37,179 nt of DNA, taken from positions 1 through 37,179 of the IMG/VR virus record IMGVR_UViG_3300037485_000392. The stretch is one strand, 5' to 3'. This document shows, piece after piece, positions 1,706 through 37,179 of the stretch. The stretch is from a virus. Below the pieces are notes generated by a model, which saw nothing but the letters and a program-made list of their open reading frames with translations, was not told the DNA's origin and did no database searches. The translations under genes were made by a program, and so were the position numbers. The first letter of the stretch is position 1. Each line of letters starts with the position of its first letter.

Positions 1706-1883
1706 TTAGTTTTATAAACTTTTCCCACTTTAATTCAAAGCATGACTTATCTCTTAGGTTACTTCTAAGTACATTTTTTGCCACGTAAATAGGCATTTCA
1801 CGTTCAGTCACATAGTGCTTAACCACTATCAAAAGTCTTTCGTCTGCTTCCTCTTCATCCATTGGTAGATTGCAATCTCTCAT
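1683..1883 (-). CDS. Unknown 66-residue protein
   Basis: This small soluble protein starts at 1883 in a 4-nt ATGA overlap with the stop of the PAS-HisKA gene, so translation is probably coupled. The N-terminal part is acidic (DEEEADE) and the rest is predicted helical. I do not recognise a family. Its close coupling to the upstream gene suggests a related role, possibly as a partner of the PAS-HisKA protein. That is only inference. Confidence 0.65.
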   Translation of the reverse strand: MRDCNLPMDEEEADERLLIVVKHYVTEREMPIYVAKNVLRSNLRDKSCFELKWEKFIKLIGGYATR

Positions 1884-2449
1884 AATTGCCTTGTTGCTTT
1901 CTTAACTAACAAATGTATTGATTCATCTAACCTTTTCATTGAATCGTCAACCATCTTAAGTAATTCAGTTTGTTCATCCTCACCTACATTATTACCCTTA
2001 TCAAGTAACAACTTAACCACACCAGCTACAGATGTCAAAGGTTGACGTAGTTCATGGCTTAACATAAACCTGAACTCTTCTAATAGTTGTTTCTGTTTCT
2101 CATGTTCGTGACTTGTGATACTGGTCACATCTGTTATTTGAAAACCAATAAAATGAAGAGACCCAAGTATAGCGTAGCAGTTCCACAAGTTCCACCTTAA
2201 CCCACTATTTTTTTGCTTTGTTCGTGCATAGATACGAACTGGGTTAGGACTTAACTCAATTGCTTTCTTAACTGATATAACATAATCGTCAAGTTCAGTA
2301 TCGTCTGAGATTATATCACTAACTTTTTTAGGTTTGATATGACTTGAATACTCTTTAAATAAATCATTTGACCTTACTATGTTACCTTCATAGTCAGCAA
2401 CTACATACAACAAGTCAATAGAATTAGCTAAGATGTATTGAGTAGACAT
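1880..2449 (-). CDS. PAS-HisKA protein: truncated histidine kinase without ATPase domain
   Basis: The 189 residues read as a PAS sensor domain (about 5-110, ending in the typical ITDVT) joined to a HisKA dimerisation domain (about 122-189). The H-box SHELRQPLTS contains His132, the expected phospho-acceptor. The gene stops just after the second HisKA helix. No HATPase (N, G1, F, G2 box) region exists here or in the next gene, so it cannot phosphorylate itself in the normal way. It could dimerise with a host kinase as a dominant negative, or act as a phosphate relay or sink. It lies between membrane genes downstream of holin and endolysin. Domain identification is strong; the role is unknown. 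Confidence 0.85.
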   Translation of the reverse strand: MSTQYILANSIDLLYVVADYEGNIVRSNDLFKEYSSHIKPKKVSDIISDDTELDDYVISVKKAIELSPNPVRIYARTKQKNSGLRWNLWNCYAILGSLHFIGFQITDVTSITSHEHEKQKQLLEEFRFMLSHELRQPLTSVAGVVKLLLDKGNNVGEDEQTELLKMVDDSMKRLDESIHLLVKKATRQL

Positions 2450-2451
2450 AT

Positions 2452-2961
2452 CTAACTCTTAACTATCTTGTTAATCTTACGAATCATATCTAACCAATAA
2501 AATGTAGACCGATATAACCAAATAGAAGTAGCTAACAACATCAACATCATTACAATTGAGTTACATAAATCACTATATAAGTAGTCTTGAACCATCTTAT
2601 TTTCACATTTTTGTATCGAATAAGGTTTCAAATCCAACTTTTCACCCTTAATTAACCACTTTGCATCACAAGGTTGTATGGTATCTGATGCTCTGAATGG
2701 TTGTATAGGTGTTAGTTCAACTTCTACCTTTTCATTTGGCTCAAATTTAGTCAATATTTCATCAACATATAGAGTCTCACCCCACTGATTTTTATAAATG
2801 AACATTGATGTATCACCCATGTAGTGATTTACAAACGTAAAAGGCTCAGGTGTAAGTACCACTTCTTTTAAAATGTGGTTATGAACCTTACAAGATGCAC
2901 CAATCACACAAACATTATCAAATGTGTGAGTATAAATAGTGTCTTTTACCATCTTATACAT
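2452..2961 (-). CDS. Tail-anchored membrane protein of the lysis cassette
   Basis: The protein has 169 residues. The first 130 or so are polar and beta-like, then a strong hydrophobic segment follows (about 135-158), then a short basic tail. It is therefore probably anchored at its C-terminus. There is no signal peptide. The ATG at 2961 overlaps the holin gene by 8 nt. Met4 at 2952 would start 1 nt after the holin stop and is equally likely. The position next to the holin candidate suggests control of holin or another envelope function, but I do not recognise the family. Confidence 0.7.
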   Translation of the reverse strand: MYKMVKDTIYTHTFDNVCVIGASCKVHNHILKEVVLTPEPFTFVNHYMGDTSMFIYKNQWGETLYVDEILTKFEPNEKVEVELTPIQPFRASDTIQPCDAKWLIKGEKLDLKPYSIQKCENKMVQDYLYSDLCNSIVMMLMLLATSIWLYRSTFYWLDMIRKINKIVKS

Positions 2962-3163
2962 TAGTACCCCCTTTCTCAGTAGGCTTCCACACCCACTTCA
3001 AGGTCACAACTGCACCAATAATATAAGCAAATGACTCCTTATCTATCTTCTTAGTGAAAAATAGCCAAAAGCCTAATACAGATATGAGTGAACCTATAGT
3101 CAAATGCCAGTACACCATAAGTAAGTCAGCTATTTGTTTGAATTTCTTAGGGTCGATAGCCAT
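2954..3163 (-). CDS. Putative holin, two membrane segments
   Basis: This 69-residue protein has two hydrophobic helices (about residues 12-35 and 45-58) separated by a short charged loop (KKIDKES) and a charged C-terminal tail. That is the usual build of a class II holin. It sits directly after the endolysin gene, with only 6 nt between them. In the family picture a holin makes the inner-membrane hole that lets endolysin reach peptidoglycan. The identification rests on size, topology and position, not on a specific sequence motif. Confidence 0.7.
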   Translation of the reverse strand: MAIDPKKFKQIADLLMVYWHLTIGSLISVLGFWLFFTKKIDKESFAYIIGAVVTLKWVWKPTEKGGTNV

Positions 3164-3169
3164 AGACTA

Positions 3170-3628
3170 CTATACGACCACCTTGAAATATAGTTCGGCT
3201 TCTTTTTGTCTTCTTTTTACCAAACCTTGCAGCACCTTACCACCACCTCTATTCCATTTAGCGAACTCTAAGGCAATATCTTTATCATTAGGGTTGCTAA
3301 GTACCTTTTTGAGTAGTGTAGACTTGGATAAATTACCTAATCCACAATTAAAGGCAAAGGATACCAATGCATCAAACTGGTATTGAGTCAAATTGACCGA
3401 CCTTGTGTACTTACTTACATAAATATCAAAGTCAACTAAGGTATTAATGAGTAATACCTCTGCTTCATCCTTATCACGTAGCACATCACCCATCTTAACA
3501 TTGGATTTGTCAGGATAGAACGTAGAACCATAACCAATTGTAGGCACACCAGCACTACACTTGTAGGCATTGAGTCTAAGACCTTCAAAGTCCTTGACTA
3601 ATTGAATACCAGTCTTACTTATATTCAT
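3170..3628 (-). CDS. Endolysin, GH24 (T4-type) lysozyme
   Basis: This 152-residue protein spans a complete GH24 muramidase domain and has no extra binding module. The catalytic triad is Glu15, Cys24 and Thr30 (EGLRLNAY..C.....T, then IGYGS). The spacing is the same as Glu11-Asp20-Thr26 in T4 lysozyme, with Cys in place of Asp, as in many phage members. The conserved region around VSFAFNCG and the C-terminal VKRR are also present. It cleaves the MurNAc-GlcNAc bonds of peptidoglycan. No signal peptide is seen, so it depends on a holin. The start overlaps the preceding stop by one base (TGATG). Confidence 0.93.
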   Translation of the reverse strand: MNISKTGIQLVKDFEGLRLNAYKCSAGVPTIGYGSTFYPDKSNVKMGDVLRDKDEAEVLLINTLVDFDIYVSKYTRSVNLTQYQFDALVSFAFNCGLGNLSKSTLLKKVLSNPNDKDIALEFAKWNRGGGKVLQGLVKRRQKEAELYFKVVV

Positions 3629-13954: not shown

Positions 13955-14542
13955 TTAGTATTTAGAGATTAATGAAATACCACGACCCTCAGGTGTATTC
14001 AATGTTGTTGTGTTGTAGTTGTAATTTGCTGCATACTCAACAAGTCTTTTAGGGTCTTCAAGGTGGATGGTATCGTGATATACAATTACACCACCACGAC
14101 TAACCAACTTTTCAACCAACTTGAACTCAGGTAGGATTGATGCCCATGAATGGTCACCATCCACAAATATTAAATCAAAGTGATTAGATGGTAGCTTACC
14201 TAATTCATTATGTGAGTTACCTAAGATAAAATCAATTGACTTACCACCCTCTGACATATACAACTTAGTAGCTGGTGTACGATAGTCGTTGATGTCAATG
14301 CCTACGTATTGACCGCCTTTAGGTAGTGACTTAATAAGGTGTTGTGTTGTTTCACCTTCAAAGACTCCTATCTCAAGAATGGTCTTATACTTTGACATCC
14401 TAACTAATGATGCTAAGAATTGACCAACTTCATCTTCAGAGTTCCAGTCATGACGTGCCACCTCGTTGAATGTCTCAGTTGTTACAATTTCTTTAACAAC
14501 CTTCTTATGTTTTACTGCTTTCTTGGTAGATGTGTCTTTCAT
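13955..14542 (-). CDS. SAM-dependent methyltransferase in the structural region
   Basis: This 195-residue protein has the class I methyltransferase fold: motif I LEIGVFEGETT (about 56-66), the acidic strand end YVGIDIND (79-86), then DLIFVDGDHSW (123-133) and GVIVYHDT (151-158). It looks like the Methyltransf_24 family, often O-methyltransferases acting on sugars or small molecules, rather than DNA methylases, because no (D/N/S)PP(Y/F) motif exists. The N-terminal 20 residues are basic. It overlaps the glycosyltransferase gene by 4 nt, so the two probably work together, perhaps modifying a glycan on virion proteins. Confidence 0.85.
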   Translation of the reverse strand: MKDTSTKKAVKHKKVVKEIVTTETFNEVARHDWNSEDEVGQFLASLVRMSKYKTILEIGVFEGETTQHLIKSLPKGGQYVGIDINDYRTPATKLYMSEGGKSIDFILGNSHNELGKLPSNHFDLIFVDGDHSWASILPEFKLVEKLVSRGGVIVYHDTIHLEDPKRLVEYAANYNYNTTTLNTPEGRGISLISKY

Positions 14543-15492
14543 TTGTTTACATATTTTTGACCTATGATTCTATCAATATGGAATTGATGTATTTTATTTT
14601 GAGTTCGCATCATTACCTTCATTAGCCTATCTAACCATTCAGTATAGAATCTTGAGGTAAAGTTACGACCACCATAGTAAGACTGAAAATAATAGTTTTC
14701 TGTTACTTCTTGGAATGACAAACCACGAACAGAGGCAAAGTGAATAAACCCAGTCTCAGATGTACCCTTACCTACTATACCATCATTCTTGTATGATGGG
14801 TCATAAGATGTCATAGCTAATGCAACATTCATATAAAGTTCATCAGGTTGACCATTACCCCACTTCATTCTAAGTCTATCAGTAGGTAACTGATTGGTGG
14901 TATAAAGGATTCTAAGCACTCCAAATAGATTCTTAGACTCATTGCATACCTTAATGAATTGAAGACTGGAATTGATAGCTGGTAGGATTGAATCACTTTC
15001 TAATTTGAAATGCTCCCAAATGTCATTAGCCCATGCCCATTGCATTGAGGGGATATCACGTCCTAAATCAATAGTATGATACCCCACACAATGACTGATG
15101 TAATGCCTCTTTGTACTTACTAAATCTTCAATGAGTGGCTGAATGTCTTTTAAACAAATAGCATCAACATCAAGATAAAGGTTATTCTTAAAAGGCAAAT
15201 ACTTATATAAAGACACCTTTAACATAGCTGGGTCAAATTTACCATCTACGTAAAGGTCGGAATGTTCGATTTGATTTAATGAATCAACATACTTAAATAT
15301 GTCACCAGTTGCATTTTCACACTTCTTAATATCGTCTACAAAGAGTGCAATCTTTACATTAGGTGAATGATATTTTATTGAATAGGCTAAGTTGTATGCT
15401 GCTTGATAGTAGCCTTGTTTGCCAAAAGCAAATAGTACCACACCTTCATTAGAAGATGTGGCAGTATCGTTAGTGTTTAACTCTTCAGTCAT
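14539..15492 (-). CDS. GT-A type glycosyltransferase (GT8-like)
   Basis: This 317-residue protein starts with a short polar tail and then a nucleotide-sugar binding fold (VVLFAFGKQGYYQAAYNLA). The strand NNLYLDVDAICLKDI has the metal-binding DxD motif at residues 108-110. The order fits GT-A enzymes of the GT8 type, which transfer a sugar from a nucleotide-sugar donor. It lies between the probable tail tube gene and a methyltransferase, inside the virion block. Modification of a tail or head protein is therefore more likely than DNA or host surface modification. The acceptor is unknown. The stop overlaps the next start by 4 nt. Confidence 0.8.
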   Translation of the reverse strand: MTEELNTNDTATSSNEGVVLFAFGKQGYYQAAYNLAYSIKYHSPNVKIALFVDDIKKCENATGDIFKYVDSLNQIEHSDLYVDGKFDPAMLKVSLYKYLPFKNNLYLDVDAICLKDIQPLIEDLVSTKRHYISHCVGYHTIDLGRDIPSMQWAWANDIWEHFKLESDSILPAINSSLQFIKVCNESKNLFGVLRILYTTNQLPTDRLRMKWGNGQPDELYMNVALAMTSYDPSYKNDGIVGKGTSETGFIHFASVRGLSFQEVTENYYFQSYYGGRNFTSRFYTEWLDRLMKVMMRTQNKIHQFHIDRIIGQKYVNK

Positions 15493-36115: not shown

Positions 36116-36826
36116 TTAGAATGGTAATTTAGTAGGGTCTTCTTGTTCACCTTGCATCCAATCGAAATCACTTGGATTAACACCTTTCTCAATAGTGAAT
36201 GTAGGTAGTGGTGTTGGTGCTGGTTTATTAGCTGGGTAGTTAGCTGACATTTCAGCATTCATGTATGCTATAAATTCATCACTCAATTTAATCTTATCTT
36301 GTACGAACTCAGGTAGTGTCCTGAACACAACCATATCAGGTTGTTGAGTTGAGAATATAAGTGGTGGGTTCACAGCTGGTGGGCATACCATTCCTTTAGG
36401 TAGTGGTGTGATTGTTTGAATGTTTGCAAAGGTCTTTTCACCGCTTTGTTTGTGGATTATGTTTACCATGCATTCACGACCAATTAAACTAAATACATTG
36501 TACTTCTTAGCCTCATCTTCAGTCAATGTCTTACCCTCAATAGAGTGAACATCTTTTCTTAGAGTGCTTTTCTCATGCATTGAAAGCGTGTACATATTAC
36601 GAGCGTAAAATGGTTGCTCACCTTTCTCAGGGTCAAAGACCGCAGTCTCTAATGGTAGTTCAAAAAGGATTTGAACCTTTCTTTTTTTACCACCAAATTG
36701 ACCAGTTTGCTCTGTAGTTCCTAAGTCAATGATTTGATAGATACGTGCAAGGTGCATACCTACTGGTGCAATCTTGTTGCTGTAGTTTGAGTCTCCACCG
36801 ATGGGAGCATTTAAAGTTGGTAACAT
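36116..36826 (-). CDS. SSB-like single-stranded DNA binding protein
   Basis: The N-terminal 165 residues or so of this 236-residue protein look like an OB-fold (GMHLARIYQIIDLGTTEQTG, KVQILFELP, later ECMVNIIHKQSGEKTFANIQ). A Pro-rich linker follows, and the end is acidic, with ASP-type residues and LPF as the last three (DWMQGEQEDPTKLPF). That tail is like the C-terminal tip of bacterial SSB (DDDIPF), which docks partner proteins. It is the first larger gene of the early region and is followed by a hairpin, then the recombination genes. The fold call is by pattern only. Confidence 0.7.
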   Translation of the reverse strand: MLPTLNAPIGGDSNYSNKIAPVGMHLARIYQIIDLGTTEQTGQFGGKKRKVQILFELPLETAVFDPEKGEQPFYARNMYTLSMHEKSTLRKDVHSIEGKTLTEDEAKKYNVFSLIGRECMVNIIHKQSGEKTFANIQTITPLPKGMVCPPAVNPPLIFSTQQPDMVVFRTLPEFVQDKIKLSDEFIAYMNAEMSANYPANKPAPTPLPTFTIEKGVNPSDFDWMQGEQEDPTKLPF

Positions 36827-37179
36827 AACTGATTTGGATTTATTGATTAAAAATTAAAGTGATTTAAACATTATGGTAGCAGTCTCTTCTAACTTAGCTA
36901 ATGCCTTATCATAGGCTGTTACCCATTCATCAACTGAGATAGGTTGATAATCTCTATACTCCATTGGTACATTATGATGCTCTTCTTTGAAGTATTGTCT
37001 AACCATCATAGCGCAGTTAGAATCACACCTTGTAAAGATGCCTTTGTAACAACCATCATTCACGATGGTAATCATTGACCCATTGATATGGTCGTAATGG
37101 AAATAGGTATTATTATCTTGAAGTTTGAATAATGTTGATGCTTTCATATTACACGAATTTAAAATGATTGATTAGAAAT
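36791..37179. repeat. Right copy of the terminal overlap
   Basis: This is the same sequence as 1-389, with nine single-base differences. It carries the first 12 codons of the SSB-like gene and the complete 97-residue gene. The unit length of the circle is therefore about 36,790 bp. Confidence 0.9.
36854..37147 (-). CDS. Unknown 97-residue phage protein (right copy)
   Basis: This is the second copy of the gene at 64-357 in the overlap of a circular assembly. It is identical except for Thr77 instead of Ala77. In a circular genome the two are one gene seen twice in two strain variants. See the left copy for the protein description. Confidence 0.75.
   Translation of the reverse strand: MKASTLFKLQDNNTYFHYDHINGSMITIVNDGCYKGIFTRCDSNCAMMVRQYFKEEHHNVPMEYRDYQPISVDEWVTAYDKALAKLEETATIMFKSL

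Follow-up and report, generated by a model that had tools for sequence, protein, structure and literature searches.

A gene of an uncultured phage group, here called g3, encodes a 189-residue protein in which a predicted PAS fold leads into a HisKA/DHp helical hairpin and the chain then ends, with no ATPase domain. It is a core gene of its phage group and lies within the lysis cassette. One reading, which we favour tentatively, is that g3 is a phage-domesticated histidine-kinase stub that acts by DHp engagement of a host PAS histidine kinase.

The window, by which we mean the whole stretch of DNA analysed, is a single virus record, 37,179 bp long. A repeat of 389 bp, with 9 mismatches (97.7%) between its copies, occupies both ends (1-389 and 36791-37179); the genome is therefore probably complete and either circular or terminally redundant; the mismatches probably reflect assembly with strain variation. 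Owing to this repeat, a 97-aa ORF is present twice, in copies that differ by one amino acid. The minus strand carries nearly all genes. Distant relatives of the terminase and the portal protein belong to phages of Flavobacterium, Bacteroides and Parabacteroides, the GC content is 35%, and a Shine-Dalgarno motif is missing in 27 of 29 genes; these features suggest that the host of the phage group is probably a member of the Bacteroidota. The portal gene of the structural module has two neighbours of note (13955-15492): a gene resembling O-methyltransferases (PF01596, 1.2e-17) and a gene for 317 aa with no Pfam match.

The g3 frame runs from an ATG start on the minus strand (1880-2449), and its length, its H-box SHELRQPL and the phospho-acceptor candidate His132 (codon at 2054-2056) are as a first-pass annotation had given them. 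That annotation also called a HisKA domain from the letters alone, and profile searches bear this out: Pfam HisKA (PF00512) matches residues 129-178 with 39.8 bits (E=4.7e-10; curated cut-off 26.9), and a second profile search gives 41.2 bits. The copy in the distant relative L161 scores 21.3 bits, under the cut-off. The "clear PAS domain" of the same annotation holds at the level of fold and not at that of sequence. The Pfam PAS families give no match to g3 at E<=1, whereas an AlphaFold2 model (pLDDT ~80-88), Foldseek and a profile-profile match place a PAS fold at residues 13-105 (2135-2413, minus strand). This is closed by a DIT-type motif, DVT, at residues 107-109 (2123-2131, minus strand), invariant in the aligned copies and followed by a signalling helix. 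The HisKA/DHp hairpin, defined by the Pfam match and the model helices, occupies residues 113-187 (1889-2113, minus strand).

The AlphaFold2 model is a single chain built from a 17-sequence alignment (pTM 0.54). Structure prediction had been proposed as a check on the HisKA assignment, and the model contains the expected hairpin as two long helices, 113-154 and 157-187, at moderate confidence (pLDDT ~55-78 by block); a four-helix bundle would form by dimerisation. In Foldseek searches of the PDB, LOV-histidine-kinase chimeras lead (8a52, E 5.3e-7; 4gcz) and many PAS domains follow, with a TM-score, normalised by target, of up to 0.79 for the PAS part alone. Because the rmsd of the full chain against kinases is large (~29 A), presumably reflecting a different PAS-to-helix angle, only the domain-level matches are meaningful. 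A LOV-type light sensor was considered, since LOV kinases head the fold matches, and rejected: the LOV cysteine motif, GxNCRFLQ, is not seen in the g3 sequence. A sequence search of the PDB with g3 gave no match.

Profile-profile comparison aligns residues 20-184 with Bacteroidota PAS-HisKA kinases (97.1% probability, E 6e-11) across their last PAS-like stretch, DIT motif and HisKA, and places the DVT of g3 on their "QTDIT". These kinases share with g3 the PAS, the DIT motif, the signalling helix and the HisKA/DHp with its H-box, in the same order and spacing. They differ in that they have their own ATPase after HisKA, whereas g3 has none, either in the protein or in the phage genomes, and has one PAS only and no membrane segment. 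On this comparison, g3 appears to derive from a Bacteroidota-type kinase by truncation at the start of the ATPase linker, which would leave the PAS-HisKA core. Intermediate forms between a host kinase and g3 were not found.

The end of the frame is precise. As the first-pass annotation had observed, it comes right after HisKA: the stop falls exactly where the second DHp helix finishes, and the frame shares 4 nt with the following gene, g2, which leaves no ATPase remnant downstream. The earlier statement that nothing for ATP binding is present also extends beyond the protein. HATPase_c is absent from g3, the window genome and 24 relatives, and the receiver domain PF00072 is likewise absent from these 25 phage genomes (33.7-38.4 kb). 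In control genomes, the same search recovered HATPase in 14/14 and receivers in 12/14. At no other site of these 25 near-complete phage genomes was an ATPase or a receiver found, and a two-component partner of g3 must therefore be host-derived. Within the order to which the L161-bearing MAG belongs, the cellular proteins nearest to g3 are ordinary HisKA-HATPase kinases whose sensor parts are of the PAS or heme-NO-associated type, and a search for a particular host kinase partner turned up generic PAS-HisKA kinases alone.

Relatives of g3 are widespread among uncultured phages. Three scans of IMG/VR returned 292, 392 and 394 contigs, the best 80 of which were examined in each case; that ~390 contigs encode relatives excludes a chance origin of g3. 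Identity to the window protein ranges from ~55 to 98% among the matches listed. In the first two scans, all complete copies examined terminate 57-58 residues past the histidine, and the H-box reads HELRQPL in 157/159 copies, HELRHPL in one and HELLSPL in the distant L161. Among 126 distinct coding sequences, a set that leaves out 37 further copies with FRFT instead of FRFM before the H-box, His132 is present in 126/126 (codons CAC in 81, CAT in 45), as is E133 at H+1. P137 and the DVTSI stretch (residues 107-111) are also constant despite codon variation, and the whole first DHp helix around the H-box is unusually invariant. Position H+4 is Q in 122 of these 126 sequences, and S or H in the others.

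Independently of g3, 20 related genomes were recruited by terminase, and 18 of them carry the gene. The other two records measure 29.3 and 28.2 kb, against the usual 34-38 kb in this group, and are therefore probably incomplete. In ten pairs where it could be computed, omega for g3 is 0.03-0.11. This purifying selection, together with the presence in 18/20 terminase-recruited genomes, indicates that g3 is functional. Among 50,697 deposited phage records, no match was found at E<=1e-3; at relaxed E, the matches are weak, short and mostly confined to the HisKA region. GTDB species genomes yield a sole match, a phage contig of 3.7 kb that had been binned with a Bacteroidota MAG. A recent capture from cells was rejected on this ground, and because 296 Bacteroidota genomes hold no close homolog.

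The conserved residues of the H-box bear on what g3 might do. Of the two activities of HisKA proteins, only that of a kinase requires the acidic residue adjoining the histidine, and only that of a phosphatase requires a Thr or Asn at H+4 (PMC3510030). With E invariant at H+1 and Q mostly at H+4, g3 appears to keep the residue for phosphorylation and not the canonical residue for phosphatase activity. These residues fit phosphorylation by, or docking of, the ATPase of another kinase, and would speak against a phosphatase. This last point is a soft one, because Bacteroidota kinases seen here likewise have no Thr or Asn at H+4 (SHDLRSPL, SHDLKGPL).

In the host-kinase reading that we favour, g3 would be a soluble, probably dimeric PAS-DHp protein that has lost its own ATPase domain and could act as a two-component part only through the ATPase of another protein. 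It would be made with the lysis proteins, late in infection. The DHp hairpin would pair with, or dock onto, a host Bacteroidota PAS histidine kinase, and the host ATPase domain would either phosphorylate His132 in trans or be occupied by g3. The phosphate of the host pathway could then be drained or redirected, with the PAS input in control. The dimerisation, the host partner, the phosphorylation, the direction of the effect and the link to lysis timing are all elements that we infer. Engagement of a host kinase is favoured by the invariance of the His-Glu pair, the kinase-like spacing, the lack of a phage ATPase or receiver, the purifying selection, and the precedents of RetS and ChpT. Counting against it are the weakness of the matches to cellular kinases, described below, and the moderate confidence of the modelled DHp.

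RetS is a cellular kinase much larger than g3. It blocks the autophosphorylation of GacS by forming a DHp-DHp heterodimer, and the working mode proposed for g3, DHp pairing with another kinase, would be alike (PMC12148439). ChpT passes phosphate through its DHp and can neither use ATP nor autophosphorylate; the phosphotransfer that ChpT and Spo0B carry out on a dimeric helical hairpin without ATP is the chemistry that may apply to g3 (PMC3433190). ChpT retains a degenerate ATPase-like domain and lacks a PAS, whereas g3 has a PAS and nothing past the DHp.

The surroundings of g3 are those of a lysis cassette, as the first-pass annotation had proposed. All genes of the cassette lie on the minus strand. 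The endolysin, g6 (3170-3628), is a phage lysozyme (Phage_lysozyme PF00959, E=5.5e-40; PHROG 7 endolysin, E=1.1e-51), and the holin-like and spanin-like neighbours are assigned by sequence features. The 69-aa small membrane protein g5 (2954-3163; homologs 67-93 aa) is holin-like in size, hydrophobic segments and position, and has no convincing family match in Pfam or PHROGs. Hydropathy and alignments describe g4 (2452-2961) as a fast-evolving protein of 169 aa (omega 0.12-0.52) with a single C-terminal hydrophobic segment, and hence as tail-anchored. Past g3 lies its conserved partner gene g2 (1683-1883), which encodes a 66-aa helical protein modelled by AlphaFold2 as three helices. It has a conserved core, DERLxKV...MP, and no known relatives; it always follows g3 directly where the contig reaches, and a fold search against the PDB gave nothing meaningful. 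We regard g2 as a candidate binding partner of g3. The last gene, g1 (1022-1705), is spanin-like: its alignment contains an N-terminal hydrophobic segment, an invariant Cys, a periplasmic-type middle and a C-terminal Gly-rich hydrophobic segment.

The assignment of g1 draws support from the L161-L163 clade. There, g1 was not found, and a protein with a lipobox (LSSC/LASC) and a C-terminal TM segment stands between g4 and g3 (u-spanin-type lipoprotein, L163:5417-5932), a place that is empty in the window lineage. Unimolecular spanins have this layout, a lipoprotein whose C-terminus holds a membrane segment (PMC6139136). This would be an apparent spanin replacement within an otherwise conserved cassette, and it supports reading g1 as a spanin, though its lipobox is atypical. 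In two members of the clade, an extra gene of ~254-266 aa is found between the lysozyme and the holin-like gene (L162:3989-4753, L163:3986-4750), where it begins with a signal-peptide-like sequence; the extra gene is also found in L040 and L041.

A role wholly within lysis would suit the fixed place among lysis genes just as well. Here, the PAS would sense a late cue (redox, energy state or membrane stress), and the helical bundle would signal to the holin-like, tail-anchored or small helical proteins without any phosphate. The gene order agrees with this. The co-directional order g6-g5-g4-g3-g2-g1 is fixed in 187/209 loci, not all of which are independent, as some records were fetched twice; the remaining loci lack at least one outer gene, and most of them lie at contig ends or belong to the L161 clade. 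The g5-g4-g3-g2 core is kept in all loci with sufficient flank, g2 adjoins g3 in 205 loci, and the 4-nt overlap recurs in 181 of these. There is no separate promoter space for g3, and 197/209 copies have no predicted membrane segment. Finally, g3 is the best conserved protein of its cassette: against more distant genomes, its identity is 55-68%, compared with 50-57% for the lysozyme, 33-44% for g1 and 21-28% for g4. The same comparison also cuts the other way, since g4 and g5 mostly diverge to 21-32% while g3 holds 55-63%, which argues against tight co-evolution with its proposed targets. An invariant His-Glu pair and H-box would, moreover, be superfluous for a phosphate-free bundle. We consider a lysis-internal regulator the main rival, possible but less likely than engagement of a host kinase.

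A further proposal is that the lysis operon holds a sensor dedicated to environmental input, which would make use of the ATPase of host kinases; through its PAS and a DHp phosphorylated in trans, lysis timing would be coupled to host physiology. This we rate as unlikely.

A third possibility, akin to the mixed dimers raised in the first-pass annotation, is that g3 is purely a dominant-negative decoy, silencing host kinases, for example those of an envelope-stress or defence response, by forming inactive mixed dimers; His132 would then be retained solely because the docking face for the ATPase is retained. The DHp-only architecture and the RetS-GacS precedent (PMC12148439) are consistent with this, as is the invariance of the first helix around the H-box. 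Close similarity to one host kinase would, however, be expected of a decoy. Even the nearest cellular kinases match g3 weakly (best E 5e-11 per genome) and give no sign that it mimics any one of them, and the 296 Bacteroidota genomes contain no kinase that matches at E below 1e-12. Conservation of the PAS would also be unnecessary. A pure decoy seems rather improbable. That g3 is what decay has left of a captured host kinase, or a passenger piece of one, as its homology to host PAS kinases and its missing C-terminal half might suggest, is rejected as highly improbable by the uniform end point, omega, synteny and near-universal presence in the group, with ~390 contigs, and by the lack of HATPase in the 25 genomes, which disposes of the relatives with a full ATPase domain that the first-pass annotation had named as a sign of decay.

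Virus-encoded histidine kinases and PAS proteins are already known. Two phage families, PHROG 10912 and PHROG 857, match g3, and a fold search of viral proteins (BFVD) returns several phage "histidine kinase" and "PAS domain" proteins, some of them short. These families, together with BFVD A0A6J5L941, A0A6J5KZZ3 and A0A8D9CBR8, resemble g3 in being virus-encoded sensor-kinase parts. By fold alignment, the named viral kinase and PAS proteins share 12-19% identity with g3, are not recognisably of the same family and are mostly longer; among those compared here, none was found as a core lysis-cassette gene. Three entries from other uncultured phages (A0A6J5KZZ3, A0A6J5RGP7 and A0A8D9CBR8), annotated as PAS or "histidine kinase", have 165-169 aa and a fold like the g3 model. 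Solo sensor stubs may be more widespread among phages. Small proteins encoded for lysis control offer another comparison, as the T4 antiholins or lysis-timing proteins RI and RIII share with g3 this role, which for g3 is putative. T4 RIII is described as cytoplasmic (PMC8385771). No relation in sequence or fold between these proteins and g3 was seen. In open-licence papers, an ATPase-less PAS-HisKA protein was not found described as a fixed gene of a lysis cassette.

The usual explanation of when a phage lyses its host invokes nothing but the accumulation of holin. To our knowledge, few control inputs to lysis timing are known. If the sensor reading is true, a conserved sensor in the lysis cassette would provide a testable route from host state to the lysis decision; alternatively, g3 would be a means by which the phage silences the signalling of its host at a late stage of infection. 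As a naturally split kinase whose ATPase the host supplies, it would also be useful for two-component engineering. In either case, an uncultured and widespread phage group has a sensor stub as a fixed part of its lysis gene set.
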